Below, piece by piece: positions 32,964-55,740 of a stretch of DNA of 64,000 nucleotides; position 1 is the stretch's first letter, and the number at the start of each line of letters is the position of its first letter. Source of the stretch: an uncultured Alphaproteobacteria bacterium (GTDB lineage Bacteria > Pseudomonadota > Alphaproteobacteria > HIMB59). A program made the position numbers and the translations under genes. The notes beneath the pieces are model-generated. The model made no database searches and was not told the DNA's origin. It saw only the letters and a program-made list of their open reading frames with translations. Where the stretch lies: NCBI GenBank assembly GCA_902527545.1, contig CABZPR010000001.1, positions 180,848 to 244,847 on the forward strand, given 5' to 3'.

Positions 32964-33578
32964 TTAGTTAGCTATTAAATTTAATAACTTACCAAACTTA
33001 CCAGAGAATTTGATTTTGCCATGAGTGTAAGCTAATCCGATACAACCAGTTTGAGCATGACCAACTGGAGTATGATTATGGTTGTCACTTCTTACTTGAA
33101 CAGAGCCTTGGTTATAATTTCCATACTCATCACTATAAGAACCGTGCAAAACTAAAAAACTTTCATTGCCCTCGTGCGTGTGTTGAGGAATTTTTGCACC
33201 AGGCATTACATGGATGAGTTCTAATTTTTCATTATTATCTTTAGGAAGTATAGAAGCAACTTTAACGTCTTTAAAAGATTTCCATTTTATATTTTTATTT
33301 CTTAAGTGGGATCTCAAAGTAAGTGGCAATTGACTTAACAAAGGATCATGCTCTTCATTAATTTGTGGCGCTGATTTTTCATTATTAGTTTGATCTAAAA
33401 CTCTATTCCATAGGTCTTTAGATAAAGGAGATGTCTCAGCCTTATCTAAAAAATATCCACCCACCTCGTTGATAGCAGAGTTAAGAGATTTATTATCAGG
33501 ATCAACTTCAACTAAGCACTGTTGGAAAAGAAGACTTGCTGGAGAATTTACAGGTGTACTTAAAATTTCATATGTCAT
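32964..33578 (-). CDS. chrR: ChrR-type cupin anti-sigma factor
   Basis: 204 residues. The N-terminal region occupies the place of the ChrR anti-sigma domain and ends in INEVGGYFL, but the HxxxCxxC zinc ligands of that domain are missing. The C-terminal cupin keeps its metal site: IPQHTHEGNESFLVL plus NHNHTPVGH. In Rhodobacter, ChrR holds RpoE inactive until singlet oxygen appears. The start overlaps the stop of the sigma-factor gene, so the pair is co-translated. Loss of zinc ligands means binding to sigma may be zinc-independent. Confidence 0.85.
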   Translation of the reverse strand: MTYEILSTPVNSPASLLFQQCLVEVDPDNKSLNSAINEVGGYFLDKAETSPLSKDLWNRVLDQTNNEKSAPQINEEHDPLLSQLPLTLRSHLRNKNIKWKSFKDVKVASILPKDNNEKLELIHVMPGAKIPQHTHEGNESFLVLHGSYSDEYGNYNQGSVQVRSDNHNHTPVGHAQTGCIGLAYTHGKIKFSGKFGKLLNLIAN

Positions 33579-34174
33579 CAGTTAACCATACTTCCGCTGT
33601 CATTATTTAGATTAACCATATTTCCGTCTTGTTCCAATTTGCCGCGGATCTTCTCCAATGCTAAACGAATTCTTGATTTTACCGTGCCTAAAGGGATTTT
33701 GGTTATCTCGGCAATTTCTCCATGAGATTTCTCCTCAAAGAAATTCATTTTTAACAGATCTAGTTGATCCTTTGGAAGATTATCTAAATATTTTGCCACC
33801 ATTTCAAATTTTTGGTCATGTTCAATATTTTCGTCTGCTTTAGACTCAACGGGAGGTAAAATAGCAGTCTCTATGTCCTCCAAGACCGCTTTTCTGGTTT
33901 TTCTTAAAATATCAATTTTCTTGTTACGAGCGATAGTATAAATCCAAGTGCTTGGTGAAGCCACAGACGAGTCATAATAATCAGCTTTGGTCCAAATAAT
34001 AGTCATGGTTTCTTGAATGATTTCCTCTGCAACAGCCTCGTCCGCACCTGACTTCATTAAAAAAGACTTTAGCCTAGGACCAAAATAATCAAAAATTTTT
34101 TTAAAACTTCCAATATCCTGCCTCTCAGCAATATTCTGAAGTGCTTCTACAAAGGGATTTTTAACTTTTACCAT
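33578..34174 (-). CDS. rpoE: ECF RNA polymerase sigma factor (RpoE/ECF11-like)
   Basis: About 198 residues from MVKVKNP, the start supported by a strong GGAGGAATTG ribosome site; the tracked ORF begins 15 codons earlier. Region 2 includes DEAVAEEIIQETMTIIWTKADYYD and TWIYTIARNKKIDILRK. Region 4 includes LPKDQLDLLKMNFFEEKSHGEIAEITKIPLGTVKSRIRLALEKIR. Paired with a ChrR-type anti-sigma, it probably controls the response to singlet oxygen or related stress. TGAT and TAAGA elements upstream resemble its expected promoter but the spacing (16) is off. Confidence 0.92.
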   Translation of the reverse strand: MVKVKNPFVEALQNIAERQDIGSFKKIFDYFGPRLKSFLMKSGADEAVAEEIIQETMTIIWTKADYYDSSVASPSTWIYTIARNKKIDILRKTRKAVLEDIETAILPPVESKADENIEHDQKFEMVAKYLDNLPKDQLDLLKMNFFEEKSHGEIAEITKIPLGTVKSRIRLALEKIRGKLEQDGNMVNLNNDSGSMVN

Positions 34175-34253
34175 CAATTCCTCCAAGTACATCTTTCCAT
34201 TTATTATTTTAAAAATCAATCTTAATTGGTATATTCTCTGACATCAAATCACC

Positions 34254-36311: not shown

Positions 36312-38720
36312 TTATCCTTGTGTCAAAAAATAATCTGATATGCCCAACTCCATAATATCTGCTATAACATTTATAATTTGATCTTTATGTTCTGGGCCAA
36401 CTAAAATTCTATACATTACAGGGTCAGACACCATCGTAGGTCTAACTTCAACACGCGTTCCAATTTTTTTTGATATGTCGTCAGCTACAATTTGAGAGAC
36501 TTTTTCTTTTTTAAAAGCACCAACTTGAATAAATGCTGATTGATTAGGGTTATAGGATGTCATTGACTCAATTTGATCTCCAAGACTATCGTTAAGTGCA
36601 GCAATCAATACATTTTTATTTGGTTTAGGCTTAGATTTAATTTTAAAACTTGAGTCGAGGATAATATCTAGGTCCTCTAAATCTTTATCCTCTTTAAAAC
36701 TGATTGCAGCAATTAGTGAATCTAACATCTCTTCATTTACTTCTTCTTTAGTTGTAATAACTTCTTCTATCTTTTTTTCCAAAGCTTTGTTGAGTGCATT
36801 TAATTGCTCCTCATTAACAGTTTCTTCTTCAATTGTTTTTAGTTCAGGAACCGTTTTAGGATTTTGATTATTAATATCCCAAGATAACGTAAATGTATCT
36901 GATATATTTGTTATATCATTGCTTGCTTCTATTGTTAGATTCAATGAGCCAGTAGCAAATGGTGGGTTGCCGACAAATGTATATTGCGATGGAAGGAAGA
37001 CTAACCATGATGGTAAGGCGTCCCCATTAGCCATCTTTACATTGTATCTAGTTTTTCCACTACCCTCCAAATAAAAGGATTTTTCATCAAACTTAAATAT
37101 AAAATCAACGAAATTATAATTTGATAAATTAACATTATCTTCAACGATTTTGGTTGTTTGAACGAGCACAGGGTTTTGATCATTTAATGGAATTGCAACA
37201 AATGAATTATATTTTTTTGTCCAACGATTTAAGTTTTCTTTTAGGGCTAATGCAAGTTCGCTATCACCAATCTGTGATAAATTTTCTGGTGTAAAGTTCA
37301 TACCTACAGATGAATACAATGTGCCCAGACTATATTGTAATTCAGCGTAGGCTATGTCGTTTCTTAAACGAGAAACAAGTAGACTTGCTTCTTCTCTAAT
37401 CATTTCTAATTCTCCAAAACGAGAAATTTTTTGAGCATTAGATATTAAATCGTTAATTCTTTGGGCAACATTCAGATAATGTTTGGCGTTACTGTATTCT
37501 CTTAAACTTTGTGCATAGTTGATATTAGCAATGTGGACTTGAGATAAAACAGCCATTGAAACTGCCAATCTTTGTTCTTCGATGAGTTTTTCATTAATTT
37601 TATTAATATCATTAATATTACCAGCTTGGAAAATATTCAATAAATTAGCGCCGAAAACAGCACCGTACTCTACATTATCTTTATTTAACAAATACTTATT
37701 AGAGTCATAAGTCCATGTAGCGTTAAACTGAAGGGAAGGAAATAATGAAAGCATTGATGCTTTTGCTTCTTGTGCAGAAACTTTTTCTTGGTATCTAACT
37801 TCTAGTAATTCAGGTCTTGAAAATAATGCTGCTTCTTCTTGCTCTTCTAGAGACATATTTAACTCCGTTAGAGGCTGTTCTGTTTTTACTAAAATGTATT
37901 CCTGATCCGGCAAAAGTCCCATTAATTTAGATAACTGCGCGCGCGAGTCCATTAAAGCTCGACGCTGTGTATTTAAAATTTGCAAAACATCAAGTAATTC
38001 TTTTTGGTATAATAAAGCATCCATAGGCGAACTAATTAAAAGTTCTTCAATATATTCATAGTCATCTAATGCAGCATTAACTCTGTCCATTAAAGGATTT
38101 ATTTGACTTAATAACTCATCAGCAGAAAGTGTCTTCCAATAAGCATAAATAACTTCTTTTGTTAAATTATGAATGGCCTTTCGCTCTAACTCTTTTGAAA
38201 TTAAATATTTGTTAGCTTGCTGACCTGCTCTAACATAAGACAGACCAAAGTCTAATGCATTCCAAGTGAAACCTATATCATACGAATTTGACGGTGTTTG
38301 TTGTGAAAGTGTATAAGTAGGGCTATCAGCTATAGCTTCTGCCGCTACATTTTCTTCTCCATCAGTAATATCAGTAGTCATATTTACGCTAGTTGATGCT
38401 GGATGCTTTTCTAAAACTTTGTAACCAGCATTCACAGATAATTTTGGTAACATATCAAACTTAACCACATCTATTTGACCCTGACTTAATGCGGAGTCCA
38501 TAAGGTTCAATCGTAAATCACGGTTATTCTTAATTGCGATCGCAATAGCCTGGTAAAGATCAATTTCTAAAGGTGCATTTTCAGATGTTTGTTTGAGATA
38601 CTCTAAATCCTCTTGGGATGAAAGTTGGACTTCTTCTTTTACAATTGGCATGGGTGTCTTAGAACACCCCCAAATGAATATTGATGCAATTAATACAACA
38701 AAAACCTTATAATTAGCCAT
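36312..38720 (-). CDS. TolC-family outer-membrane lipoprotein with cadherin-like and SPOR domains
   Basis: The start is set at MANYKVFV (ribosome site GGGGAAAGA), giving 802 residues; the tracked ORF starts 12 codons earlier. Residues 1-19 are a lipoprotein signal ending IWGC. Residues 40-480 form the duplicated TolC/OMF helical barrel (YAYWKTLSADELLSQINPL, GLLPDQEYILVKTEQPL, long coiled coils). Residues about 510-620 form an Ig/cadherin-like domain with ALPSWLVFLP and TFVGNPP. Residues about 725-802 form a SPOR domain (SAFIQVGAFKKEKVSQ). TolC forms the outer-membrane exit duct; SPOR binds denuded peptidoglycan, typically at the septum. It diverges from the giant adhesin and is probably its exit channel. 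Confidence 0.88.
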   Translation of the reverse strand: MANYKVFVVLIASIFIWGCSKTPMPIVKEEVQLSSQEDLEYLKQTSENAPLEIDLYQAIAIAIKNNRDLRLNLMDSALSQGQIDVVKFDMLPKLSVNAGYKVLEKHPASTSVNMTTDITDGEENVAAEAIADSPTYTLSQQTPSNSYDIGFTWNALDFGLSYVRAGQQANKYLISKELERKAIHNLTKEVIYAYWKTLSADELLSQINPLMDRVNAALDDYEYIEELLISSPMDALLYQKELLDVLQILNTQRRALMDSRAQLSKLMGLLPDQEYILVKTEQPLTELNMSLEEQEEAALFSRPELLEVRYQEKVSAQEAKASMLSLFPSLQFNATWTYDSNKYLLNKDNVEYGAVFGANLLNIFQAGNINDINKINEKLIEEQRLAVSMAVLSQVHIANINYAQSLREYSNAKHYLNVAQRINDLISNAQKISRFGELEMIREEASLLVSRLRNDIAYAELQYSLGTLYSSVGMNFTPENLSQIGDSELALALKENLNRWTKKYNSFVAIPLNDQNPVLVQTTKIVEDNVNLSNYNFVDFIFKFDEKSFYLEGSGKTRYNVKMANGDALPSWLVFLPSQYTFVGNPPFATGSLNLTIEASNDITNISDTFTLSWDINNQNPKTVPELKTIEEETVNEEQLNALNKALEKKIEEVITTKEEVNEEMLDSLIAAISFKEDKDLEDLDIILDSSFKIKSKPKPNKNVLIAALNDSLGDQIESMTSYNPNQSAFIQVGAFKKEKVSQIVADDISKKIGTRVEVRPTMVSDPVMYRILVGPEHKDQIINVIADIMELGISDYFLTQG

Positions 38721-38755
38721 TCTTTCCCCGTCAAAAATAACAGCATAAAATCTCA

Positions 38756-38778
38756 TAGTTGTGGATAAAAAACAACTA
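38756..38778. promoter_or_regulatory. 7-bp perfect inverted repeat between TolC and adhesin genes
   Basis: TAGTTGT and ACAACTA are separated by 9 bases, in the 149-base divergent promoter region. A TATATT about 50 bases further right could be the -10 of the adhesin promoter. A shared operator for both directions is plausible but not demonstrated. Confidence 0.4.
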
Positions 38779-38869: not shown

Positions 38870-41800
38870 GTGGCTGATAAACAGAAAACTTATCCACATT
38901 TTAGCATTCAAATGCTGGAACCGAGAATCATGTTTGATGGTGCTGCTGTTTATGCTGCTAGTGAAGCCATTGAAGCTGTAGAAGACCAAATTCAAAACAA
39001 CTCTCTTAGCGAAAGCGATCTTTCAACTAATTTAAAAGCGATTACACACAACAATGACTCGAGAAAAGAAATTGTCTTCATAGACAAGGGTGTTGATGAT
39101 TATCAAACAATCATAAACTCCATCGATGACACAAAATCTATCTATTTAATTGACTCTAATGAAAACGGCTTTGCAAAAATGCAAAGTATTTTGCAAGATC
39201 AAAGTGACATCGATGCAGTACATATTATAGGACACGCAAGTACTGGTCAGGTAGTACTTGGAAATTCAATATTAAATTCGGAAACGATCAATTCTTTTAG
39301 CACTGCACTTCAATCAATTGGTGCCTCGTTAACTCAAGATGGTGACTTATTATTTTATGGTTGTAATTTGGCACAAGGTGAACAAGGAAAATTACTTATT
39401 CAACAAATTGGAAATATTTCTCAAGCAGATATCGCAGCCTCTGATGATATTACAGGTAAGGGTGGTGACTGGGACTTAGAAAAAAAATACGGTATTGTTG
39501 AAACTAATGGAATTAGTGTTGTTGATTACAAACACTCTCTTCTTCAAAATGGAATTTCATCATTAGATGGTTTTGTAGAAAATACGGGAACAAATTTAAA
39601 AGCGGGTAATAATGATGCTGGAACTGCTGCCTCTGCCTCTAATCACACTGATGGCAACAAACCCTTTGTTATTACCTTAGAGAGAGAAGATATAAACACA
39701 GGCTCATTTGCTTTTTATAAGACTACAAATTTAGGCACTGGATATGAAGAAAATAATAGCGGTGTCCGAACTAGAGGTCCTGACATAACATCAGGCACTA
39801 CTACTGTTGATGCTTCATCAACGCCTATGAATTCATATTACGTTTATGCTACAGAAAACTCAGGAAGAAATGATGTGCGGTCAGTAGTTTTTGAAAATGA
39901 AATACTAGGTGTTTGGTTCAATATGAATAATATCATTGCATATTCGGGAGTTGATAAAAGTGGAGCGACTTATCACACAATAAACCAACACGGTAGTGGC
40001 GGCAATAATGCTTTTAGTACAGAGAAATTAAAGTGGACTTGGAGCACAAGTGTTACAGACTCTAGTAAACCTTCAGGCCATAAAAGTGACTGGTTTGGTG
40101 TCGATACTGACTCAAATACACTTTATGTGGGATTTAATAATGGTGCACAGCATGGTGACATCATAAGAGTTTTTACAAAAGCAGGTAATCAAGCACCTGA
40201 TGCAGTAAATGATACTGACAGCGTTAATGAGGATGCTACGGTTACCAAAACAGGATCTCAAAATGATGTGCTTAACGACGACAGTGACGCTGATGGAGAT
40301 ACAATCACTGTAACAAAAATTAATTTTGACAGCGGCACAGACTCTAATGTCTCCTCAGGAAGTACATATAATAGTAGCGGCACATCAGTCACTGGAACAT
40401 ACGGAACTTTAACCATTGGAGCTGACGGTTCTTATACTTACGTCGCTGATCAAGATGCAGCAGATGATCTGGATGCGGGTGATCAAGTAACAGATGTTTT
40501 CGTTTACACTATTTCAGATGGTGCACTAACAGATACTGCCAACTTAACTATTACAGTTACAGGTATTAATGATGCCCCTGTTGCTGTTGATGATACAGAT
40601 ACAGTTGCGGAAGATGCTACCGTTACAAAGACAGCTTCGCAAGACGATGTAATGAATGACGACTCTGATCCAGATGATAGTGCGAGCCTAAGCGTATCAA
40701 ATATAGCGCATACAAATGGTAATTCTGGATCTGTTTCTTCAGGCTCGACTTATGAAAGTAGCGGTACACAAATAGTTGGTACTTATGGTACTTTGACAAT
40801 TGGCGCAGATGGCTCTTATACATACACAGCTGATCAAACAGCTGCTGATGCTTTAGACGTTGGAGACAGCATAGATGATGTCTTTACTTACACATTGTCA
40901 GATGGTACGGACACTGACACTGCAACTTTAACAATAACTGTAACGGGAGTGAACGATACACCGAGTGCCCAGAATGATGTGGGTGTGATTGATGAGGGTG
41001 AAACATTGACAGTTACAAATGGGGCAAATGCCAACGAAACCAATGACTCTGGTAGCACATTTAATGCAACAGGAGAACATTCAGGTGACATAATTAATAC
41101 CAGTTCAAGCTCTCATGTTGACAGTGACCCTGACGCATCTCCTACATTAAGAATTTCAGCAATTCAACCTAGTGGTGGTTCATCTTCATCTGTTACTAAT
41201 AATACCTCCTATGACAGCAATGGTACTTCAGTAACAGGAACTTATGGTACTCTTACCATTGGATCAGACGGTTCATATAAATATGTTGCTAGAGACAGCA
41301 TATCAGGATTTAGTGCTAGTAGCTCTAACCTAACTGACACCTTTACTTATACTCTATCAGATGAACACGACGCAACAGATACCGCAACTCTGACGATTAC
41401 ACTTATTGGTAAAGACAATGAGAACCCAAGTGCAACCGATAACACTAATGCAGTAGATGAAGATGACTCAGTGACTGTTACTGATGGAACGACTGGCGTC
41501 ACAGGAGATGTTCTTATAAATGACACTGATCCTGAAGGAGATACTCTTAGTGTTTCAAAAATAAAAAAGAACGGAGGAGATTTCTCTAATGTTACATCAA
41601 GCAGTACACATTTAAGTAATTTTACAACAGTTACCGGAACTTACGGTACTTTAAAAATTGGTGCTGACGGATCTTATATATATACAGCAGACCAAAGTTT
41701 GGCCGACGACTTGGATGCAGGCGATGTAGTTACAGATGTTTTTGTCTATGAAGTCTCTGATGGTAATACCGGATCAGATACTGCAAATATAACAATTACT

Positions 41801-44800
41801 GTCACAGGTATAAACGACCCGGTTGTTGCTACCGATGACACTGATGCCGTTAACGAGGACGCTTCAGTGACAAAAACTGGAGCACAAGATGATGTATTAA
41901 ATGACGATACAGATGCGGATGACTCAGCAACTTTAAGTGTGTCGAAAATCAAACATAGCACTGATAGCGGATACACTTCTGTTACATCAAGCAGTACACA
42001 TTTAAGTAATTTTACAACAGTTACCGGAACTTACGGTACTTTAAAAATTGGTGCTGACGGTTCTTATATATACACAGCTGATCAAACAGCAGCTGATGCT
42101 TTAGACGCAGGTGATACAGAAACCGATGAGTTTACATATGAAGCCACTGACGGCTCACTTACAGCTACCGCAACTTTAACAATAACTGTAACGGGAGTGA
42201 ACGATGCTCCTGTTGCACAAAATGATACAGGGACCATTAATGAAGATGGAACTTTGACTGTTATCAATAGCAGTAATGATAATACTGTAACACCCGCATC
42301 TCTTGATACTGGTTCTCCATATGCAACTACAGATACAACTCGTTCTGTAGCATTTAATCATGATGGGACTAAAATGTTTGTTCTTCATCATAGCAATTCA
42401 CCAGATATCTCTGTACATACTTTAACAACTGCTTTTGATATAAATACTGCTACTCAAAGTAGTACAACAGACATTTCTTCTCACGCAGGTAATCCACGTG
42501 GTATAAGATTTAATAATGATGGTACGAAGCTGTATATAAGCAATGGCTCAGGAGCTAATAAAAAGATTCATGAATTTGCTTTATCTACAGCCTATGATAT
42601 TTCCTCATTACCAACACCTACTTCAACTGTTATAAGCGGTCAAGACGGCAACCCTAGAGGTTTTACTTTTAATACTGATGGAACTAAAATGTTTTTACTG
42701 GGAGATATTAATGATGCTGTTTATGAATATTCTCTATCAACCGCTTTTGATTCCTCAACAATTTCATACACAAGTAGAAGTTTAGATTTTAGTGCAAAAG
42801 AAGGTACACCAAGGGGAATTTCATTTAACGCAACAGGCACAAAATTGTTTATCACAGGTCAGGCAAATAAGGATATTTTAGAATATGATCTTAGTACCGG
42901 TTTTAACTTATCTACAGCAACATTTAATGGTGCATTTGATGTGAGTAGCTATGCAGATAACCCAACTGATATTATATTTAATAATGATGGATCCAAAGCA
43001 TTTTTAGCTCGAGCATCAAGTAACGGAATCCAATCTTTTTCACTTTCAAGTCCATATAGTTTTGTAGACATCACCGGCGAATATACCGGTGATGTAATAG
43101 ATACAACCTCAAGTTCAAACAAGGACTCTGATCTTGACGCTAGTGCTTCTTTGAGAGTTTCAGCAATTCAACATAGCTCAGCAGGCTCTTCCACAGCTGT
43201 AAGCAATAATACTACTTACGGTGCTTCTGGAACTACCGCGGGCACAACTGTTAGCGGAACTTATGGTCAACTAACCATTGGTTCAGACGGCTCATATAAA
43301 TACGTTGCTAATGACTCTGATGCGGACGCTCTTGATGCAGGCGATATAGTTACAGACGTATTTACTTACACATTGACTGACGGGACTGCAACAGACACCG
43401 CAACAATTACTATCACAGTTATTGGTATAAACGATACTCCTACCGCACAAGACGATGAAGGTGCAATAACAGAAGATCTCACTTTGACTGTTACAAACGG
43501 ATCAAATTCCAACATTTCTGGTTCTCTTGACACAACAGGAGAAAATTCAGGTGATGTTTTAGACACCTCCTCAAGCTCTCATAAAGATACTGATTTAGAT
43601 ACATCAGCTTCTTTAAGCGTAAAGCTCATTAGAAAAAATCTTGGCACAGATTCTTCTGTTCAACCAGGAAGTTCTTATAATAGTAGCGGTACCTCCGTAA
43701 CAGGAACTTATGGTACTTTAACAATTGGTGCAGACGGATCGTATAGTTATGCTGCTGATCAGGCAGCTGCAGACTCCATTGCAGCTGGAGAGAGTCAGAA
43801 TGATGTGTTTGTTTACACCATAACGGATGGCACGCAAGATAACACAGCAAATATTACTATTAAAGTATTAGGGGCAAACGATAACCCATCAGCACAAAAT
43901 GATGTCGGCGTCGTGAATGAAGGGTCTACACTAACTGTTCAAAATAGTGCAAATGCAAATGTTGACGGCAGTTTTGATGCAAACGGTGAACACTCAGGTG
44001 ATGTCATCCATACGACTTCAAGTTCACATAAAGACAGTGATCTTGACACAAACGATACTCTCAGAATTACTCAGATTAAAAAAAGTGGTGGTGATAATTC
44101 TAGTGTTTCTTCAGGGAGCTCCTATAACAGTAGTGGTACATCTGTAACGGGCTCTTATGGTACTTTGACAATTGGCGCAGATGGTTCTTACACATATGTA
44201 GCAAGTTCTGATATTTCAGGATTAAGCGATGGTGCTACAGTATCTGATACCTTTACATACACTTTATTCGATGGAACAGCAACAACCACGGCAGATCTCG
44301 TACTGACTGTCATTGGAGGTGCAGCAGGCAATGAAAGCCCAGACGCTGTTAACGATACAGATAGTGTGAATGAAAATGCATCTGTAACTAAAACTGGTGC
44401 TCAAAATGATGTCTTAAATGATGATAGTGATCCAGATGGAGATACAATTAGAGTTGATCAAATTCAACATAGCAGTGCAGCCTCAGGCACATCAGTGAGT
44501 AATAACACAACTTACGGTGCAAGTGGAACCACCACGGGCACAACTGTTACTGGAACTTATGGTCAACTAACTATTGGTTCAGACGGCTCATATGTATACT
44601 CAGCAAATCAAACAGCTGCTGAAGCACTTGCTGCAGGGGCTCAAGAGGATGATGTTTTTACCTATAGAATTACTGATGGTTCTGCAACCGACACAGCAAC
44701 ACTAACAATTACAGTTACAGGCGTGAATGACGCCCCTGTAGCTGTTGATGACACTGATAGTGTAAACGAAAATGAAACTGTTACTAAAACAGGTTCTCAA

Positions 44801-47800
44801 AATGATGTTTTAAATGACGATACAGACACTGATACAGGCGCTTCTCTTTCAGTATCAAATATAGCGCATACAAATGGTAATTCTGGATCAGTCTCTTCAA
44901 GTTCAACTTATAATAGCAGTGGTACACAAATAGTTGGTACCTACGGTACTTTGACAATTGGTGCAGATGGCTCTTATACATACACAGCTGATCAAACAGC
45001 AGCTGATGCCTTAGACGTTGGAGATAGTGATGATGATGTATTTACTTACACATTGACGGATGGCACAGACACTGATACTGCAACACTAACAATTACAGTT
45101 TCAGGAAAGAACGATACACCTGCGGGTGTAGACGACACCGATAGTGTAAATGAAGATGCTACTGTTACTAAAACAGGATCTGAGGACGATGTATTAAATG
45201 ACGATACAGATGCTGATACAGATGCTTCGCTAACAGTTACTAATATATCACATACAAACGGTAACTCTGGAACTGTTTCTTCGGGTTCGACTTATAGCAG
45301 TAGTGGTACACAAATAGTTGGCACATATGGTACCTTAACAATCGGAGCCGATGGATCTTACACTTATACAGCTGATCAAACTGCAGCTGATGATTTAGAT
45401 GCTAATGATCCTGCAACTGATGTTTTTACTTATACGCTAACCGATGAAAATTCTGCAACTGCAACAGCAACATTGACAATTACTGTTACTGGTGTAAATG
45501 ACGCCCCAGTAGCTGTTAACGATACAGATAGTGTTAATGAAGATGCAACTGTCTCTAAAACTGCAGTGCAAGATGATGTTTTAAATGATGATACAGATGC
45601 AGATGACTCAGCATCTCTTACAGTCTCAGCAATTAGAACTGGAGCTGAAGACGGTACAGGAAATAGTGGCACTGTTGGATCAGCTTTAACAGGTACTTAT
45701 GGAACACTAACTCTTAATTCAAATGGATCTTATACTTATACAGCTGATCAAAGTGCAGCTGATGATTTAGACGCAGGTGATACGGCAAACGACGTCTTCA
45801 CCTATACAGTTTCTGATGGAACAGCAACTGATACAGCAACATTGACAATCACTGTAACAGGTGTCAATGACACCCCTGTAGCTGTTGATGACACCGATAG
45901 TGTTGATGAGGACTCGAGCGTCACTAAGTTGGCTATTCAAGATGATGTTTTAAATGATGATACAGATGCTGACGACTCCGCTGATTTAACCGTTACAAAA
46001 ATTCAACCTGGCTCTGGATCAGAGTCAAATGTTTCATCTAGTACCACACATCTTAACGGCACATCTGTGACTGGCACTTATGGTACGTTGGTGATTGGAT
46101 CTAATGGAGCATATAAATACACGGCAGATCAAACAGCAACTGATGCCTTAGATGCTGGTGATACAGAAACTGACGTCTTCACCTATACAGTTTCTGATGG
46201 AACAGCAACTGATACAGCAACATTGACAATTACAGTAACTGGTATTAACGATGATCCAGTCGGTGTAAATGATACGGACTCTGTGCTTGAGGACAAAACT
46301 ATTACAAAAACTGCAGCTCAGGATGATTTATTAAATGATGATACTGACGCTGATGATTCATCTTCACTGACATTAACTAATATATCTCACTCAAATGGCA
46401 ATTCAGGTACTGTTGCCTCAAGCTCAACTTATCAAAGTAATGGTACTCAAATAGTTGGTACTTATGGAACATTAACTGTTGGTGCAGATGGATCTTACAC
46501 TTACACTGCTGATCAAGCTGCAGCTGATAATATAGCCGATGGCTCCACTGAGACAGATGTGTTTACTTATACTGTATCCGACGGAACAGCATCTGATACT
46601 GCAACAATTACCATTACAGTTACCGGTCAAGATAATGAAGTTGTTGGAAATAACGATGCCGGAAGTGTTACAGATGGTAATACTCTGAGTGTTGGAAATA
46701 AAGCTTCAGGGTTATTATCAAATGATACAAACGCAGGTAATGATGCAGATGAGACCGCTGATGCTGTTGTTTCTGCTGTAAGAACTGGAAGAGAGGCTGG
46801 CTCTGGCACTAGTGGCACTGTGGGATCTTCTTTAAAAGGTACTTACGGAACACTAACACTCAACTCAGACGGTACTTATTCATATGTTGCAGACCAAGAT
46901 GGCGCAGACATTCTTACTCCAGATACAACTGCAATAGATTATTTTACATATACTATTTCTAATGGATCCAGTACTGATACAGCACAATTAGCTGTCACAG
47001 TTACTGGTATCAACGATGCTCCTACTTCCACAAAAGCACCTACATTTAGAGGTGCTGAAAATAATAGAATTGTCATTCAATCAAAACTTTTCTTTGATGA
47101 TCCAGATCCAGGCACCAGCACATACGGACAACTAACATATAGTTATGGTGGTTTACCATCAGGTCTGACTGTTAACGATGCAGGAAGAATTAGAGGTCGT
47201 CTACCTGAGGGTACATATACTTTTACAGTAACGGCTACAGACGGAGGTAACCTATCTACACAACAAACATTTACAATAATTATTGGAAAGCCTGGAAAGC
47301 CTGGTGATGCACCACCACCACCACTAATTGTTAAGCAAAAAACATTAGAAGCGGCGATTGCTGATAAGACAGTGACATTTGAAACACCTAAAGTTAACGA
47401 CCAAATAGCCGATCTTGCGGTGAGAGGAAATTTAGGCTCCTTAGTCAAGGAATATACATTCAATGGCGGTATGAAGGTAATCGATGTTGCTGTTGAGGAT
47501 TTAAATATTGATCAAAGTGGAAGACCTGGAATAAATGAAAATACTTTATTGGGATTTGCTATTGGAGATGATTATAGACTTAATGTAAAACAGTATACAG
47601 GAACTTTAGAGGATGGTTCTTCTCTTCCAAGCTGGATACGTGTTGATCCATCAACAGGTCAAACGATCGTTCAATTTCCTCAAAATATTTACTCAATCGA
47701 TGTCAAGGTGATTGCAATCGACAATGATAATAGCACAAGAGAAATTAATGTTACTCTGAATAGAAACTCTGTTAGCCAGGACAAAGCCTTAAAACGTGAC

Positions 47801-48172
47801 CTCGAGCCTTTCATAGACCGAAGTGCAGCTTTAAAAACCGAAGTTACTGTTGATGAAAAAGGACAAATGTTACTTAATACAAAAAATGATTTAGAAGATG
47901 GGTCTAATATAAATAATAATCTTAACCCGAATGACTCAGACAATAATGAAAACCAAACACCAAACACAGACGATCAGTCAAGTCTTATTGATATACCAAC
48001 TATACCAGGAGAAATTGATGAGGCAATTCCTGAAGATGCTATTGTTTTGAATACACAAAATTTTGAAACAGATGAAAAACTTATTAAATTTGCAACTCTT
48101 CAAGAGCAATTAGACTTACAGTATGAGGGTCATGAAAATTACGGAGATAAACTTGTTAAAGTTTCTGGTTAA
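38870..48172 (+). CDS. Giant repetitive surface adhesin (LEPR motif, DUF4347, VCBS/cadherin-like repeats)
   Basis: 3100 residues. GTG start, supported by the ribosome site AGGAGAG. There is no Sec signal; residues 15-26 carry the LEPR motif MLEPRIMFDGAA. Residues about 65-225 are a DUF4347 domain with HIIGHAS (His122) and FYGCNLAQG (Cys165). Residues 225-440 form an unassigned beta domain. From about 444 to 2710 there are some 15 repeats of about 100 residues with NDTDSVNEDATVTKTG, GTYGTLTIGADGSYTY and TLTITVTGVNDAP, the VCBS/Big_9 pattern with acidic calcium-like ligands. A five-unit beta-propeller lies inside repeat 6. Near the end come a He_PIG-like domain and an Ig/cadherin-like domain with SLPSWI (about 2917). 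The tail is Asn/Asp-rich and there is no RTX nonapeptide. Likely secreted and cell-attached. It is visibly richer in G+C than its flanks. Confidence 0.92.
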   Translation: MADKQKTYPHFSIQMLEPRIMFDGAAVYAASEAIEAVEDQIQNNSLSESDLSTNLKAITHNNDSRKEIVFIDKGVDDYQTIINSIDDTKSIYLIDSNENGFAKMQSILQDQSDIDAVHIIGHASTGQVVLGNSILNSETINSFSTALQSIGASLTQDGDLLFYGCNLAQGEQGKLLIQQIGNISQADIAASDDITGKGGDWDLEKKYGIVETNGISVVDYKHSLLQNGISSLDGFVENTGTNLKAGNNDAGTAASASNHTDGNKPFVITLEREDINTGSFAFYKTTNLGTGYEENNSGVRTRGPDITSGTTTVDASSTPMNSYYVYATENSGRNDVRSVVFENEILGVWFNMNNIIAYSGVDKSGATYHTINQHGSGGNNAFSTEKLKWTWSTSVTDSSKPSGHKSDWFGVDTDSNTLYVGFNNGAQHGDIIRVFTKAGNQAPDAVNDTDSVNEDATVTKTGSQNDVLNDDSDADGDTITVTKINFDSGTDSNVSSGSTYNSSGTSVTGTYGTLTIGADGSYTYVADQDAADDLDAGDQVTDVFVYTISDGALTDTANLTITVTGINDAPVAVDDTDTVAEDATVTKTASQDDVMNDDSDPDDSASLSVSNIAHTNGNSGSVSSGSTYESSGTQIVGTYGTLTIGADGSYTYTADQTAADALDVGDSIDDVFTYTLSDGTDTDTATLTITVTGVNDTPSAQNDVGVIDEGETLTVTNGANANETNDSGSTFNATGEHSGDIINTSSSSHVDSDPDASPTLRISAIQPSGGSSSSVTNNTSYDSNGTSVTGTYGTLTIGSDGSYKYVARDSISGFSASSSNLTDTFTYTLSDEHDATDTATLTITLIGKDNENPSATDNTNAVDEDDSVTVTDGTTGVTGDVLINDTDPEGDTLSVSKIKKNGGDFSNVTSSSTHLSNFTTVTGTYGTLKIGADGSYIYTADQSLADDLDAGDVVTDVFVYEVSDGNTGSDTANITITVTGINDPVVATDDTDAVNEDASVTKTGAQDDVLNDDTDADDSATLSVSKIKHSTDSGYTSVTSSSTHLSNFTTVTGTYGTLKIGADGSYIYTADQTAADALDAGDTETDEFTYEATDGSLTATATLTITVTGVNDAPVAQNDTGTINEDGTLTVINSSNDNTVTPASLDTGSPYATTDTTRSVAFNHDGTKMFVLHHSNSPDISVHTLTTAFDINTATQSSTTDISSHAGNPRGIRFNNDGTKLYISNGSGANKKIHEFALSTAYDISSLPTPTSTVISGQDGNPRGFTFNTDGTKMFLLGDINDAVYEYSLSTAFDSSTISYTSRSLDFSAKEGTPRGISFNATGTKLFITGQANKDILEYDLSTGFNLSTATFNGAFDVSSYADNPTDIIFNNDGSKAFLARASSNGIQSFSLSSPYSFVDITGEYTGDVIDTTSSSNKDSDLDASASLRVSAIQHSSAGSSTAVSNNTTYGASGTTAGTTVSGTYGQLTIGSDGSYKYVANDSDADALDAGDIVTDVFTYTLTDGTATDTATITITVIGINDTPTAQDDEGAITEDLTLTVTNGSNSNISGSLDTTGENSGDVLDTSSSSHKDTDLDTSASLSVKLIRKNLGTDSSVQPGSSYNSSGTSVTGTYGTLTIGADGSYSYAADQAAADSIAAGESQNDVFVYTITDGTQDNTANITIKVLGANDNPSAQNDVGVVNEGSTLTVQNSANANVDGSFDANGEHSGDVIHTTSSSHKDSDLDTNDTLRITQIKKSGGDNSSVSSGSSYNSSGTSVTGSYGTLTIGADGSYTYVASSDISGLSDGATVSDTFTYTLFDGTATTTADLVLTVIGGAAGNESPDAVNDTDSVNENASVTKTGAQNDVLNDDSDPDGDTIRVDQIQHSSAASGTSVSNNTTYGASGTTTGTTVTGTYGQLTIGSDGSYVYSANQTAAEALAAGAQEDDVFTYRITDGSATDTATLTITVTGVNDAPVAVDDTDSVNENETVTKTGSQNDVLNDDTDTDTGASLSVSNIAHTNGNSGSVSSSSTYNSSGTQIVGTYGTLTIGADGSYTYTADQTAADALDVGDSDDDVFTYTLTDGTDTDTATLTITVSGKNDTPAGVDDTDSVNEDATVTKTGSEDDVLNDDTDADTDASLTVTNISHTNGNSGTVSSGSTYSSSGTQIVGTYGTLTIGADGSYTYTADQTAADDLDANDPATDVFTYTLTDENSATATATLTITVTGVNDAPVAVNDTDSVNEDATVSKTAVQDDVLNDDTDADDSASLTVSAIRTGAEDGTGNSGTVGSALTGTYGTLTLNSNGSYTYTADQSAADDLDAGDTANDVFTYTVSDGTATDTATLTITVTGVNDTPVAVDDTDSVDEDSSVTKLAIQDDVLNDDTDADDSADLTVTKIQPGSGSESNVSSSTTHLNGTSVTGTYGTLVIGSNGAYKYTADQTATDALDAGDTETDVFTYTVSDGTATDTATLTITVTGINDDPVGVNDTDSVLEDKTITKTAAQDDLLNDDTDADDSSSLTLTNISHSNGNSGTVASSSTYQSNGTQIVGTYGTLTVGADGSYTYTADQAAADNIADGSTETDVFTYTVSDGTASDTATITITVTGQDNEVVGNNDAGSVTDGNTLSVGNKASGLLSNDTNAGNDADETADAVVSAVRTGREAGSGTSGTVGSSLKGTYGTLTLNSDGTYSYVADQDGADILTPDTTAIDYFTYTISNGSSTDTAQLAVTVTGINDAPTSTKAPTFRGAENNRIVIQSKLFFDDPDPGTSTYGQLTYSYGGLPSGLTVNDAGRIRGRLPEGTYTFTVTATDGGNLSTQQTFTIIIGKPGKPGDAPPPPLIVKQKTLEAAIADKTVTFETPKVNDQIADLAVRGNLGSLVKEYTFNGGMKVIDVAVEDLNIDQSGRPGINENTLLGFAIGDDYRLNVKQYTGTLEDGSSLPSWIRVDPSTGQTIVQFPQNIYSIDVKVIAIDNDNSTREINVTLNRNSVSQDKALKRDLEPFIDRSAALKTEVTVDEKGQMLLNTKNDLEDGSNINNNLNPNDSDNNENQTPNTDDQSSLIDIPTIPGEIDEAIPEDAIVLNTQNFETDEKLIKFATLQEQLDLQYEGHENYGDKLVKVSG
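41591..42060 (+). repeat. Exact 80-bp duplication between adjacent adhesin repeats
   Basis: Bases 41591-41670 and 41981-42060 are identical, 390 bases apart, in a gene where the other repeats have diverged at synonymous sites. A further 59-bp identical pair lies at 45791-45849 and 46172-46230. This indicates recent conversion or slippage among repeats. Confidence 0.85.
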
Positions 48173-48869
48173 AATAATAATTTTATCTCTCCTATTTACT
48201 GTTTCCTCTAAAGCAGAAGTTAGGGAGTCAAGAGCTTTGGTGGTTGCATCTCAAGAAGCTGTTCTTTCCAGTGAATTGGCCGCTCGTATTACTAGTATTT
48301 CTGTTAAAGAAATGGAAAGATTTAAAAAAGGAGATTTACTCATTCAATTCGATTGTAGTTTGTATGAAGCACAAAAAGATGTAGTTAGAGCCAATGAAAA
48401 TAGCGCATTGATCAAACTAAAAAGTGATGAACAGATGTTACAGATGAGATCTATTGGAAAATATGAACTTGAACTCTCTATATCAGAGTATGAGAAGGCA
48501 AAATCAGAATTACGTATTGCTGAACTAAATGTAGAGAGATGTGAAATTAGAGCGCCTTTTGATGGTGCAGTTGAGGAAGTTGTTGTAAACGCATTTGAGT
48601 CGATACAGCCCCAAGTTGAATTAATGAAGATTATAAAAACTGATGTTCTTGAATTAGAAATGGTAGTATCTAGTGAATGGGTTTCTTGGTTAACAATAGG
48701 CCACCCAATCACTGTTTATATTGATGAAATACAAGAAGAATTCAATGCTTCTATAAGTGGAATTGGTGCAAATGTTGATGCTGTTAGCCAAACAATCCAA
48801 CTAAAAGGTACAATTACAAACGCTAGCTCTGCCCTTTTGCCTGGAATGAGTGGGCGAGTTGTATTTTGA
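48123..48869 (+). CDS. HlyD-like periplasmic adaptor (membrane fusion protein)
   Basis: 248 residues. The N-terminus (LLKFLVKIIILSLLFTVSSKA) is a signal peptide, so unlike classical HlyD it would be periplasmic or loosely anchored. Lipoyl half-motifs ARITSISVKEMERFKKGDLLIQFDCS and ERCEIRAPFDGAVEEVVVN flank a short coiled coil. A beta-barrel domain follows and the end has ALLPGMSGRVVF. It overlaps the adhesin gene by 50 bases, and a second ATG at 48132 is an alternative start. It would bridge the inner membrane complex to TolC. Confidence 0.88.
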   Translation: MRVMKITEINLLKFLVKIIILSLLFTVSSKAEVRESRALVVASQEAVLSSELAARITSISVKEMERFKKGDLLIQFDCSLYEAQKDVVRANENSALIKLKSDEQMLQMRSIGKYELELSISEYEKAKSELRIAELNVERCEIRAPFDGAVEEVVVNAFESIQPQVELMKIIKTDVLELEMVVSSEWVSWLTIGHPITVYIDEIQEEFNASISGIGANVDAVSQTIQLKGTITNASSALLPGMSGRVVF

Positions 48870-50200
48870 GCCAAGACCAATTAAATCGTTTAGCAAGGAT
48901 TTTCACGTTTGAAAAAAAATTACGTGAAGCAAAATCTTTTGTAGAAATCAGATATACAGTTACGAACGAACTAAGAAACATAACCCCTTTTGTCTTTGCT
49001 TTTTTTGGAGAATGGGCAAACCCAAATAAATTTAAGATTGATGCTATTTCTGATATAGCAGTTGTAGAACAAACTTCTTCGACAACTATATTAGCTCAGA
49101 AAATAATAAGAGAAAAATTAAAAGAAGGATCACCTGAGACCCACCCATTTACAATCGAAAAAGACTCGTTAATCCCTGCTAAAGGTGAAAATCCAATTCC
49201 AGATAAACTTTTATGGGTTCCTTGTTTTTCAAATCAAAAAGGCCCTCAAGCAGCATTGCTTCTTGCAAGAGATGAAAATTGGGCAGAGCAAGATATCGAA
49301 TACATTAGGCACCTGAGTTCATCTATTGGACACGCGATGGGATCACTCAAAGAAAATAATTTTTTTGAAAGCTCAATTAAAGTTTTTAAAAATACATGGT
49401 TTCAATTTTTAATTATAGCAGGACTTATTGCTAGTATGTTCATTCCAATTTCTCTTTCAACAGTTGGCAAATCAGAAATTGTTCCAAAAGACCCCTATGT
49501 TATAAATGCTCCTATTGAAGGCGTCATACAAGAAGTTTTTATTCAAAATAATGATGATGTTGATATTGGAACTACATTAATATCTTTTGAAAAAACAGAT
49601 TTACAAAACGATTACGATTTAGTTTTTCAAGAATTAAAAGTAATTGAAACCGAATTACTTCAGGCAAAACAGTCATCTTTTCAAAGTAAAGAGGACAAAG
49701 CGATGGTCAGTCAACTTCAGAGTAAAATTAAACTTGTAGAACAAACCTTAAGTTATCAGAAATATCTATTAGAAGAGTCTACGATCAATTCTCCTGCTGA
49801 TGGAATTGCAGTTATAAAGGATAAATCACTTCTTATAGGCAAGCCCTTTAAGGTTGGAGAGACAATAATGGTTATCGCTGACCCATCGAATGTTGTTGTC
49901 GAGATAATGATGCCGGTAAAAGATGCTATAACAGTAAAAAAAGATGCAGAAATAAACGTTTTTTTAGACTCTGATCCACTAAATGTTATTCCTGCAAAGG
50001 TTTCAAAATTTTCTTATGAGCCTGAACTCACCAGTGAGAACACTCTAGCCTACCGGGTAACAGCGGAAATTCTTATGACTGAAAACTCACCAAGAATTGG
50101 ACTCAGAGGAACTGCAAAAATTTTTGGTGATGAGGTAAAACTATTTTTTTACTTATTTAGAAAACCAATTATTTTTGTTCGACAAACACTTGGTATCTAA
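48866..50200 (+). CDS. GAF-like domain, membrane helix and HlyD-like adaptor fusion
   Basis: 444 residues with a TTG start overlapping the previous stop (TTGA). Residues 10-160 have the GAF-like pattern (FTFEKKLREAKSFVEIRYTVTNEL, LLWVPCFSNQKGPQAALLLAR, DIEYIRHLSSSIGHAMG) and would be cytoplasmic. One helix follows (FQFLIIAGLIASMFIPI, about 172-190). The periplasmic part has lipoyl halves NAPIEGVIQEVFIQNNDDVDIG and ESTINSPADGIAVIK around a coiled coil, then a barrel domain. A sensor domain on an adaptor suggests cytoplasmic control of export. Ligand unknown. Confidence 0.82.
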   Translation: MSQDQLNRLARIFTFEKKLREAKSFVEIRYTVTNELRNITPFVFAFFGEWANPNKFKIDAISDIAVVEQTSSTTILAQKIIREKLKEGSPETHPFTIEKDSLIPAKGENPIPDKLLWVPCFSNQKGPQAALLLARDENWAEQDIEYIRHLSSSIGHAMGSLKENNFFESSIKVFKNTWFQFLIIAGLIASMFIPISLSTVGKSEIVPKDPYVINAPIEGVIQEVFIQNNDDVDIGTTLISFEKTDLQNDYDLVFQELKVIETELLQAKQSSFQSKEDKAMVSQLQSKIKLVEQTLSYQKYLLEESTINSPADGIAVIKDKSLLIGKPFKVGETIMVIADPSNVVVEIMMPVKDAITVKKDAEINVFLDSDPLNVIPAKVSKFSYEPELTSENTLAYRVTAEILMTENSPRIGLRGTAKIFGDEVKLFFYLFRKPIIFVRQTLGI

Positions 50201-52303
50201 ATGATTACTCCATCAATAAGACAAGACCTTCAACTTTTACCAGGAACTCCTATGGAGGACGGTTCTCCATCATGGCTGATTTATGATAATTTAAGAAACA
50301 AATATTTTACATTAGGTTTAAATGCTTTTCGAATACTGAGACATTGGATTGCAGGAGTAGACTCGAAACAGTTTATTGAAAAGGTAGAAGCCAAGGGGGT
50401 TACTATCGAAGAAGAGGAGTTAGATGATTTTATAAATTTTTTAAAAGTCAATAGTCTAATAATTCACTCAAGTTCAGAAGATGTTAAACTATTACTCGCT
50501 CAACATCAGGCTAAAAAAAAGCATTGGTTTTTAAATTTAATACATAACTATCTTTTCTTCAAAATACCTTTAATTAAACCAGATCCTTTTTTGGACAGAA
50601 CAATAAATATAGCTAAGTTTTTTGGAAAAAAACTTTTTAGATCAATAATCTACTTTTTTGGAATTATTGGAATTTATTTTGTTATTCAAAGTTGGGATGA
50701 ATTTTTATCTACTTTTTTGTATTTCTTCAATTTTAATGGTTTAATCTTTTACGCAATTGCATTAGTTGGTGTAAAAGCAATTCATGAATTAGGCCATGCT
50801 TACACAGCTAAGAATTTTGGATGCAATGTCAATTCAATGGGAATAGCGTTTTTAGTTTTTTTTCCTTTTTTATACACTGATAATACTAATGCTTGGAGAC
50901 TTAGAGATCATAAGAAAAGACTGATAATAAATTTTGCTGGAATCTCGACAGAGTTACACTTAGCTTTGTTGGCTACTTTTGTTTGGGGAGTGTCTGATCC
51001 AGGAATTTTGAAAAGTGGCGCTTTTTTCGTTGCTACGACAGGATGGATTTCTTCACTTCTTATTAATATTAGCCCATTTATGAGGTTTGATGGATATTAC
51101 GTATTTGCTGATTTTATAAAAATAGACAACCTTCAGCCCAGAGCATTTGCGATTGCAAAATGGAAATTGCGAAATTGGTTGTTTGGGTTGAGCCTTAGCC
51201 CTCCTGAGTATATGAGCCAACAACGCCAAAATTTAATTACTATTTATGCCTGGTCGACTTGGATATACAGGTTCTTCTTATTTATAGGAATAGCTTTATT
51301 GGTTTATTTTTTTGCATTCAAAATTTTAGGAATATTTCTTTTTGTAGTAGAAATTATTTGGTTTATAGCACTGCCTATTTTAAAAGAATTAAGAGAATGG
51401 TGGAAATTACGCTCTAGCTTTTTTTTAAATATTCGTATAATTAGAACAATTTTAATTTTAGGTGCTCTATCATTTATTTTATTTTACCCTTGGAAAAATA
51501 CACAGTCTATTCCAGCAATTTATCAATCAGAAGAATACATTACAATTTACCCAACAATAAATTCTCAAGTTTCAGATATATACGTTAAAGAGAATCAATC
51601 TGTTCAATTAGGAACAGATTTAATAAAATTAAATTCGCCATCACTTAATTCTGATATACAAAAACTAATTGAAGAAAAAAAATTAATTTCAATTCAAATT
51701 AACAATGCTTTAGAGGGCGATCAAAATAAATCAGATTTATTGATAATGAAAAGTGAAGAAAAAAAAATTATAACTAATATTAATAATTTAGAAAAAATTA
51801 AATCATCTTTAAATATCACCGCACCATTTAAAGGAGAGATTGTAAGTTTAATTGAATTAAAAAAAAATCAATGGCTAAACAAAGATGATCCAATTATGTC
51901 AATTGTAAATAAAGAGTCATTTCAAGTCATAGCTTTTTTATCTGAAAATGATATTTCAAAGGTTAAAGAGTTTAAAAATAGTTTTTTTGTTCCTAATTCA
52001 ATTGAAATGCCAAAGGTTGATTTAGAAGTAATTTCTATAAGTAAATCACCAGTAGACGATTTTAGTCTTTATCCCTCGGTTACCTCTATATTTAACGGCC
52101 CGATAGCTGCAAGAGAAAAACCTGGTGGAGGAATACAATCCGAAAGGTCTTATTATAAAGTAATTTTAAAATTGTCAGAAAATATAATCTTTTCTGATAA
52201 GAAAGTATTAGGTGTTGCAAATGTAGGTATTCAGTCACAGAGCTATTTTGATAAAATATTAAATTTAATATCTGCAACCCTAATAAGAGAAATAAGTTTT
52301 TGA
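50201..52303 (+). CDS. M50-type zinc protease membrane protein with PqqD-like N-terminus and HlyD-like C-terminus
   Basis: 700 residues. Residues about 20-95 look like a PqqD/RRE winged helix (SWLIYDNLRNKYFTLGLNAFRIL, then EEELDDFINFLKVNSLI). The membrane core has HELGH at residues 195-199 and MRFDGYYVFAD with Asp297, the two metal-site motifs of M50 site-2 proteases, so catalysis appears intact. About eight helices are visible. From residue 440 a periplasmic HlyD-like part follows (YPTINSQVSDIYVKENQSVQLG, ITAPFKGEIVSLI). It begins one base after the GAF-HlyD stop and occupies the place where an ABC ATPase gene would be expected. A role in processing or passage of the adhesin is inference. 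Confidence 0.85.
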   Translation: MITPSIRQDLQLLPGTPMEDGSPSWLIYDNLRNKYFTLGLNAFRILRHWIAGVDSKQFIEKVEAKGVTIEEEELDDFINFLKVNSLIIHSSSEDVKLLLAQHQAKKKHWFLNLIHNYLFFKIPLIKPDPFLDRTINIAKFFGKKLFRSIIYFFGIIGIYFVIQSWDEFLSTFLYFFNFNGLIFYAIALVGVKAIHELGHAYTAKNFGCNVNSMGIAFLVFFPFLYTDNTNAWRLRDHKKRLIINFAGISTELHLALLATFVWGVSDPGILKSGAFFVATTGWISSLLINISPFMRFDGYYVFADFIKIDNLQPRAFAIAKWKLRNWLFGLSLSPPEYMSQQRQNLITIYAWSTWIYRFFLFIGIALLVYFFAFKILGIFLFVVEIIWFIALPILKELREWWKLRSSFFLNIRIIRTILILGALSFILFYPWKNTQSIPAIYQSEEYITIYPTINSQVSDIYVKENQSVQLGTDLIKLNSPSLNSDIQKLIEEKKLISIQINNALEGDQNKSDLLIMKSEEKKIITNINNLEKIKSSLNITAPFKGEIVSLIELKKNQWLNKDDPIMSIVNKESFQVIAFLSENDISKVKEFKNSFFVPNSIEMPKVDLEVISISKSPVDDFSLYPSVTSIFNGPIAAREKPGGGIQSERSYYKVILKLSENIIFSDKKVLGVANVGIQSQSYFDKILNLISATLIREISF

Positions 52304-52351
52304 GTATGAAAATTATGATGTTTTCATTTGATAATTTTAATAGTATCAACT

Positions 52352-52696
52352 ATGGCTAAATTTTTGAGTGTCGTGCGTTTCAAGGTTAAACCTGGTAATG
52401 AAGAATCCTTTATTGACTCAATGAAGAAGTTTTCAAATCCCGATGGAGTTATTACCCGCAAAGTTATAAAGACAGGTGAGAGGTCCTATTGTAGCGTTGT
52501 CGAGTGGGTGGATGAAAATAGTCTTGCGAATGCTCGCCAACAAATGATCGCATATCTTGACACTATAAGAGATATTTTAGAGGAGTTCAGTTCAGAATTG
52601 GGAGTAACTGATCCAGTCTCCGGTCCAGTAATTGTTGATGAGCAAGGAAATGTCGTAACATCTGGATCAAGTATTTCAGGAAAAATAAAAACTTAA
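52352..52696 (+). CDS. Antibiotic biosynthesis monooxygenase-like (dimeric ferredoxin-like) protein
   Basis: The start is set at MAKFLSVVRFKVKPGNEE, 8 codons inside the tracked TTG frame, giving 114 residues. The pattern FLSVVRFKVKPGNEESFIDSMKKF and YCSVVEWVDENSLANARQQM fits the small ABM/dimeric alpha-beta barrel fold. No specific enzyme activity can be assigned. It follows the M50 gene by 48 bases and converges with folD. Confidence 0.65.
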   Translation: MAKFLSVVRFKVKPGNEESFIDSMKKFSNPDGVITRKVIKTGERSYCSVVEWVDENSLANARQQMIAYLDTIRDILEEFSSELGVTDPVSGPVIVDEQGNVVTSGSSISGKIKT

Positions 52697-54886: not shown

Positions 54887-55360
54887 ATGGACGGGAATAA
54901 TACTGAGATGGATGAAAATAATACTGAACTATCAGGTGATGAAATACAATCTAATCCTATAGATAATGATGCTAAAGCTGTAAACATAGGTTCTGGTGTT
55001 AGAGTTGACGGACGAATAGAGGGAGCAGAAACTTCAGATATTTCTGGAACTCTTACAGGAACTCTAAAATCTTCAAATATAAATATCAACAGTAAGGGTG
55101 CTTTTAGTGGTGACATGTCAGGTCAGGAAATAACTATCTCTGGGAGCGTTGATGGTGAGATAAATTCAGAGGATTATTTGATCGTTAATAACTCTGCAAA
55201 CATTAAAGGAGTAATTGAATACGCTTCATTACAAGTAAGTTATGGTGCAAGAATTCAAGGCACACTAAGACATAGAGGTACTGTCCAATCTTATACACCA
55301 ATTTCTACTGATGAAGTTAAAGAAGATGAGATTAGTGAAAACCAGGAGGTTGATCAATAA
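54887..55360 (+). CDS. Bactofilin family protein 1
   Basis: 157 residues: an acidic disordered N-terminus (DGNNTEMDENNTELSGDE), then the bactofilin beta-helix from about residue 30 to 135 (VRVDGRIEGAETSDISGTLTGTLKSSNININSKGAFSGDMSG, then VDGEINSEDYLIVNNSANIKGVI), and a short acidic tail. Bactofilins polymerise without nucleotide into membrane-associated filaments that place cell-wall enzymes. Its stop overlaps the next bactofilin start, so both subunits are made together and may co-polymerise. Confidence 0.9.
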   Translation: MDGNNTEMDENNTELSGDEIQSNPIDNDAKAVNIGSGVRVDGRIEGAETSDISGTLTGTLKSSNININSKGAFSGDMSGQEITISGSVDGEINSEDYLIVNNSANIKGVIEYASLQVSYGARIQGTLRHRGTVQSYTPISTDEVKEDEISENQEVDQ

Positions 55361-55740
55361 TGGCGTTGTTTGGATCTAGTGAAAAAAAATCTGAAGTAAA
55401 AACTGAATTTATGTTTGAAACTGACAGTATTGTCAACCAATCAACTTTAGCGAAAGATATAAAAATTAATGGCTCTCTTGAGTCCACTGATTATATAGAT
55501 TTTTCTGGACATTTAACTGGTACTATAAAGTCATCAACCATTAATTTAAAACCAGGTTCTTACGTTAATGGAACCGTTACTGCTGATACCGTAACTGTTG
55601 AGGGAGAAGTTGACGGAGATATTCAAGCTAAAGATATCTATATTAAGTCAACAGCAAAAATTAAGGGAAATATTCGCTATCATAACATTGATATTCAAAA
55701 CGGTAGCATAATCAACGCAGATTTGTTCTATTCATCATAA
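55360..55740 (+). CDS. Bactofilin family protein 2
   Basis: 126 residues with a shorter N-terminal extension. The beta-helix runs from about residue 22 (SIVNQSTLAKDIKINGSLESTDYIDFSGHLTGTIKSS) through VEGEVDGDIQAKDIYIKSTAKIKGNIRYHNIDI to the end. It follows bactofilin 1 with a one-base overlap and ribosome site AGGAGG. No peptidase partner is encoded nearby, unlike the bactofilin-M23 pairs in many bacteria. Confidence 0.92.
   Translation: MALFGSSEKKSEVKTEFMFETDSIVNQSTLAKDIKINGSLESTDYIDFSGHLTGTIKSSTINLKPGSYVNGTVTADTVTVEGEVDGDIQAKDIYIKSTAKIKGNIRYHNIDIQNGSIINADLFYSS

Follow-up and report, generated by a model that had tools for sequence, protein, structure and literature searches.

A TolC-family outer-membrane channel with a cadherin-like and SPOR tail, encoded beside a giant adhesin in an HIMB59-lineage alphaproteobacterium

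Giant adhesins of the LapA and BapA type are secreted by type I systems made of an ABC ATPase, an HlyD adaptor and a TolC channel. The stretch of 64,000 nucleotides analyzed here (the window), from an uncultured alphaproteobacterium of the HIMB59 lineage, resembles those systems in that genes for TolC and HlyD stand next to one for a giant repeat adhesin, but its operon has an M50 metalloprotease-HlyD fusion and a second HlyD instead of an ABC ATPase, and no RTX domain was detected in its cargo (no HemolysinCabind match in Pfam). LEPR/DUF4347 systems with these five gene families are present in Azospirillum, Burkholderia anthina and Kosakonia cowanii, on E. coli plasmids and in many members of the class. 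The TolCs of those systems usually end without a dystroglycan-type cadherin (CADG/He_PIG) domain or a SPOR domain, and, unlike in the Azospirillum, Burkholderia, Kosakonia and plasmid systems, tolC in the window is divergent from the cargo gene.

The window TolC has the OEP repeats, lipoprotein signal and matches to OprM chains of TolC/OprM outer-membrane factors (Pfam OEP), from which it differs by an extra tail of about 300 aa holding CADG and SPOR. Its CADG domain shares with others of the type an LPxW motif and Foldseek matches to alpha-dystroglycan, but has FLPSQ where they have FDxxTG. Its SPOR domain has the conserved Q and R seen in RlpA, FtsN and DamX, and is here fused to an outer-membrane channel. 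We found no TolC with a CADG-SPOR tail in the open-access literature searched, where it is apparently undescribed. The most likely reading, which we consider probable, is that a five-gene system exports one giant adhesin, that this TolC is the outer-membrane channel of the system, and that its periplasmic tail tethers the channel to peptidoglycan.

The channel protein and its relatives

The 814-aa frame on the reverse strand encodes a TolC-family outer-membrane lipoprotein in which the OEP core is followed first by an LPSW-containing CADG domain, then by a helical linker and finally by SPOR (Table 1). This is the order originally predicted, and all three domains exceed the curated Pfam cut-offs: OEP at 87.5 bits against 22, He_PIG (residues 554-625) at 28.7 against 24, and SPOR, a marginal match when this protein is taken alone, at 21.6 against 21. 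LPSW lies at residue 581 (positions 37005-37016). The protein is not a member of the NCBIfam type I secretion TolC subfamily TIGR01844, for which it scores 28.3 bits against a cut-off of 225. Residue M13 (position 38720, the start originally given) is probably the true start, since the lipoprotein signal MANYKVFVVLIASIFIWGC begins there; M13 is nearly invariant and C31 invariant among relatives, a pattern that fits an OprM-like lipoprotein.

Table 1. Coordinates of the channel, cargo and exporter features in the window
Feature	Position	Strand	Basis or remark
TolC-CADG-SPOR protein	36312..38756	(-)	814 aa, probable start 38720
Lipoprotein signal peptide, M13 to C31	38664..38720	(-)	Prediction; M13 and C31 conservation
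OEP/TolC core, residues 68-500	37257..38555	(-)	Pfam OEP, E 1.3e-24
CADG/He_PIG domain with LPSW	36882..37106	(-)	Pfam, genome scan, AlphaFold2 strands, Foldseek
SPOR domain, residues 740-808	36333..36539	(-)	Pfam and conserved motifs
Giant cargo/adhesin, 3100 aa	38870..48172	(+)	LEPR/DUF4347/VCBS; divergent from tolC
LEPRIMFDGAA N-terminal motif	38915..38947	(+)	Sequence; NCBIfam LEPR-8K match below threshold
DUF4347	39071..39508	(+)	Pfam 2.6e-45
VCBS/Cadherin_4 repeats	40187..46999	(+)	Approximate limits
Cargo He_PIG domain, distinct from LPSW domain	47048..47284	(+)	Genome Pfam scan
Cargo C-terminal CADG-like LPSW domain (C1)	47498..47791	(+)	Profile comparison and structure prediction
C-terminal motif LQEQL...YGDKL, candidate export signal	48098..48169	(+)	
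HlyD1, RND_mfp-like periplasmic adaptor	48123..48869	(+)	Overlaps 3' end of cargo gene
HlyD2, adaptor with ~180-aa N-terminal extension	48866..50200	(+)	
M50 metalloprotease-HlyD fusion	50201..52303	(+)	HELGH, MRFDGYY
Small conserved protein, end of island	52328..52696	(+)	No family

Relatives of this TolC were found in the window genus, in another family of the same order (f2) and in SAR11/Pelagibacteraceae (about 45% identity), and none on the viral contigs searched. Among 51 genome-contig loci with a long TolC ORF, the giant cargo gene lies directly beside tolC in all 47 that have intact flanks, the remaining 4 being cut near contig ends, so the expected pairing of channel and adhesin is borne out among the relatives. 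The f2 locus L102 has the operon as far as its contig piece extends, and the order HlyD1-HlyD2-M50 after the cargo gene recurs in relatives. SAR11, in which the exporter also occurs, ranks among the most abundant groups of marine bacteria. A 5-9.5 kb "autotransporter adhesin" has been described from coastal SAR11 (PMC12636525); the SAR11 cargo genes found here (L108-L125) may be the same gene; if so, the adhesin would be misnamed as an autotransporter.

The LPSW domains of channel and cargo

A second LPSW domain had been predicted at the adhesin C-terminus, and a CADG-like domain is indeed present there, with the single LPSW of the adhesin at residue 2919. Pfam He_PIG has no match in the LPSW domain of the window cargo, whose homology emerges from profile-profile comparison and from AlphaFold2 and Foldseek. 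With hhalign, the TolC CADG matched the C-terminal domains of the cargo (98%, E about 1e-12), and its match to the CADG tails on other TolCs was stronger (99.5%, E about 1e-21); other cargo repeats gave no match to it. The TolC CADG profile scored the window-lineage cargo domain at 24.8 bits. CADGs of unrelated proteins, used as a control, scored 43-50 bits, and the tails of other TolCs reached 70-90 bits when nearest and 20-40 when more distant. With the cargo-domain profile, too, other CADGs outscored those of TolC. Because the cargo domain falls below unrelated CADGs and the nearest other TolC tails, these comparisons make the two LPSW domains remote homologues within a common superfamily rather than a recently shared or swapped module, and the idea of a module specially common to channel and cargo is not supported.

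AlphaFold2 gave Ig/cadherin-like strands in the same order in both LPSW regions, with pLDDT of about 70-88 over the strands of the TolC CADG. In Foldseek, the TolC domain came out close to alpha-dystroglycan, which is the CADG archetype, and the cargo domain close to Rib and E-cadherin, although most E-values were above 0.001 and mean model confidence was low (58.8 and 49.8). The predictions are weakly consistent with an Ig/cadherin-like fold for both regions, as first proposed, and do not point to different folds.

A possible role for such a pair of domains, in our view an unlikely one, is docking: the periplasmic TolC CADG would bind the C-terminal CADG of the cargo and hold the adhesin end in the channel mouth, giving surface retention by analogy with LapA. 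The remote homology speaks for it, and so does the presence of the cargo domain in all family members whose TolC bears CADG and whose cargo end can be read; in f1, f2 and SAR11, an LPxW domain stands at every readable cargo end. Homophilic and heterophilic binding has also been reported for the bacterial cadherin-like proteins CabC and CabD (cited in PMC12153261). Against docking, the resemblance between the two domains does not exceed their resemblance to unrelated CADGs, five loci (L131, L132, L141, L144 and L167) pair a cargo LPxW domain with a TolC that has no CADG, and CADG-tailed TolCs of families f74 and f48 have no cargo nearby. Eight further loci (L126, L129, L130, L138, L146 and L164-L166) have neither domain, and the association between cargo CADG and channel CADG is not tight. 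The confinement of Pfam He_PIG in this genome to TolC and the adhesin could be counted in favor of docking, but the cargo match is to a He_PIG domain upstream of the LPSW domain, and we rejected the notion that CADG is common only to channel and cargo. Of the proposed docking or retention through a common domain, the homology is supported and the special sharing is not. No LapG-like neighbor appeared in Pfam scans of the locus surroundings.

The C-terminus is among the best-conserved parts of the cargo, a further point on the side of docking. A motif [FL]xxQ[LVF] lies 23-37 residues from the cargo C-terminus in 12 of 13 lineages, where shuffled sequences would give 0.96, a contrast that is optimistic because the motif was picked after viewing the same sequences (the window, 48098-48169; L117; L126-L167). 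Together with the CADG domain, this end of the protein is a candidate export or retention signal.

Tail exchange and the SPOR domain

The part of TolC that follows the core takes five forms among the proteins compared. The window genus has CADG and SPOR; f2, two other families and genome G108 have CADG alone; SAR11 has CADG followed by a long charged coiled coil; eight TolCs have SPOR alone, two of them (L149 and L150) assigned by sequence inspection with no Pfam match; and the fifth form is a Pro-rich or short tail. On a tree of the TolC core, built by a quick search and leaving several forks open, CADG changes twice and SPOR five times. Family f2 is placed inside the CADG+SPOR clade, and it would therefore most simply have lost SPOR. 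This exchange of tails marks the C-termini of TolC proteins as adaptors in evolution.

TolC-SPOR fusions found mostly without such adhesins were named at the outset as evidence against the original proposal, and outside the window lineage this is the pattern: an adhesin is in view for one of the eight SPOR-only TolCs, although the cargo side of two is cut by contig ends. Those two are L135, within an M50-HlyD operon, and L133, with HlyD1 after it. Another two, L153 and L155, lie beside ABC-HlyD exporters, the former also with an RTX-cadherin protein. The remaining four belong to one family and show no exporter genes of this sort nearby, though L149 has a more distant HlyD-like gene. As part of the tether reading as a whole, we regard the tail as probably a tether or spacer that can be replaced, taking the form of SPOR, a coiled coil or a Pro-rich stretch or being absent, and not a cargo-derived module.

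In TolC structures both termini are periplasmic and lie at the equatorial domain, next to the peptidoglycan. The tail should therefore sit at the entrance of the channel, and the original placement of adhesin retention at the exit has the wrong side. After the core, the chain would stay in the periplasm, with CADG beside the channel entrance and the adaptors and with the helical linker carrying SPOR, which would hold the channel on peptidoglycan, preferentially where septal or new-pole glycan is denuded. If so, the tail offers a testable way to fix a channel on the cell wall. Counted against the tether are the dispensability of SPOR in f2 and its absence from SAR11.

The SPOR match is not due to chance, since Pfam SPOR is above cut-off in most same-genus genomes with this TolC and all 42 intact copies from the genus have the motifs FIQVGAF (742) and MYRILVGP (781). 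Denuded glycan at the septum is what SPOR domains bind, through contact residues that in SPOR-RlpA include Q270, A273, F274 and R309 (PMC6895207). The Q, A and F of FIQVGAF and the R of MYRILVGP match these four, a correspondence established for these residues out of a set with two further basic-patch arginines, and their conservation makes binding of denuded glycan by the TolC SPOR plausible. The AlphaFold2 model is poor over this domain (pLDDT about 50).

Whether SPOR also confines the display of the adhesin to the septum or the new pole, tying attachment to cell division, is a separate matter. The conserved contact residues and the septal preference of SPOR domains make this possible, but f2, which has lost SPOR, and SAR11, with its coiled coil, keep the same kind of adhesin operon, so SPOR is not needed for display and we consider a link to division rather doubtful. 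Moreover, SPOR need not mark a special site for the TolC channel, because the genome has a second SPOR protein, DacA-like with a diverged SPOR end. The Pfam result that had made the TolC SPOR the sole one in the genome was set aside, as this protein aligns full-length to DacA-SPOR of relatives. The TolC SPOR might also have been captured from DacA-SPOR proteins of the order, but no evidence for this was found, and on visual comparison the two are sequences of different types.

A plainer alternative, tentative but with a real chance of being right, is that CADG is a mere spacer or stabilizer of the channel trimer, its likeness to cargo reflecting how common CADGs are, and that SPOR anchors the protein to the wall in a general way, unconnected with division. 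Tails have been exchanged often, and the nearest matches of the CADG tails are those of other TolCs, cargo-less ones included. Yet CADG is kept in f1, f2 and SAR11 while the part that follows varies, and it may act more specifically than the rest of the tail.

The island and the ABC ATPase

On the tether reading, the adhesin would leave through this channel. The five-gene operon appears to be a widespread giant-protein exporter, seemingly uncharacterised, in which the ABC ATPase usual in type I systems is missing: Pfam and NCBIfam scans found no gene for one in the operon. A survey of PF00664, a family whose scope leaves MacB-type exporters outside, found a single ORF, 580 aa long, in the genome, which is 87% complete, and one or two matches in each of eleven relatives, with no ORF exceeding 603 aa. 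At its most specific, an ABC-less exporter can be imagined in which the M50-HlyD protein and two adaptors feed TolC while the CADG-SPOR tail catches the C-terminal CADG of the cargo and pins it at the septal wall, a combination that we think very unlikely.

The island is flanked by argG and folD, which adjoin each other in genomes G028 and G014, where it is absent. At that very site G028 keeps 70 residues left over from the SPOR end, interrupted by stops (L040), and the island has therefore been lost at least once.

Three observations concern the island and its neighbors. The M50 part resembles, below the NCBIfam cut-off, an intramembrane protease of daptide RiPP maturation, with HELGH and FDGYY kept; a PqqD-like recognition domain suspected at its N-terminus received no support from a search. 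Just past argG, positions 32964-34219 encode an ECF sigma factor and a ChrR-type anti-sigma factor, and two neighboring bactofilin genes lie downstream of the island at 54887-55740.
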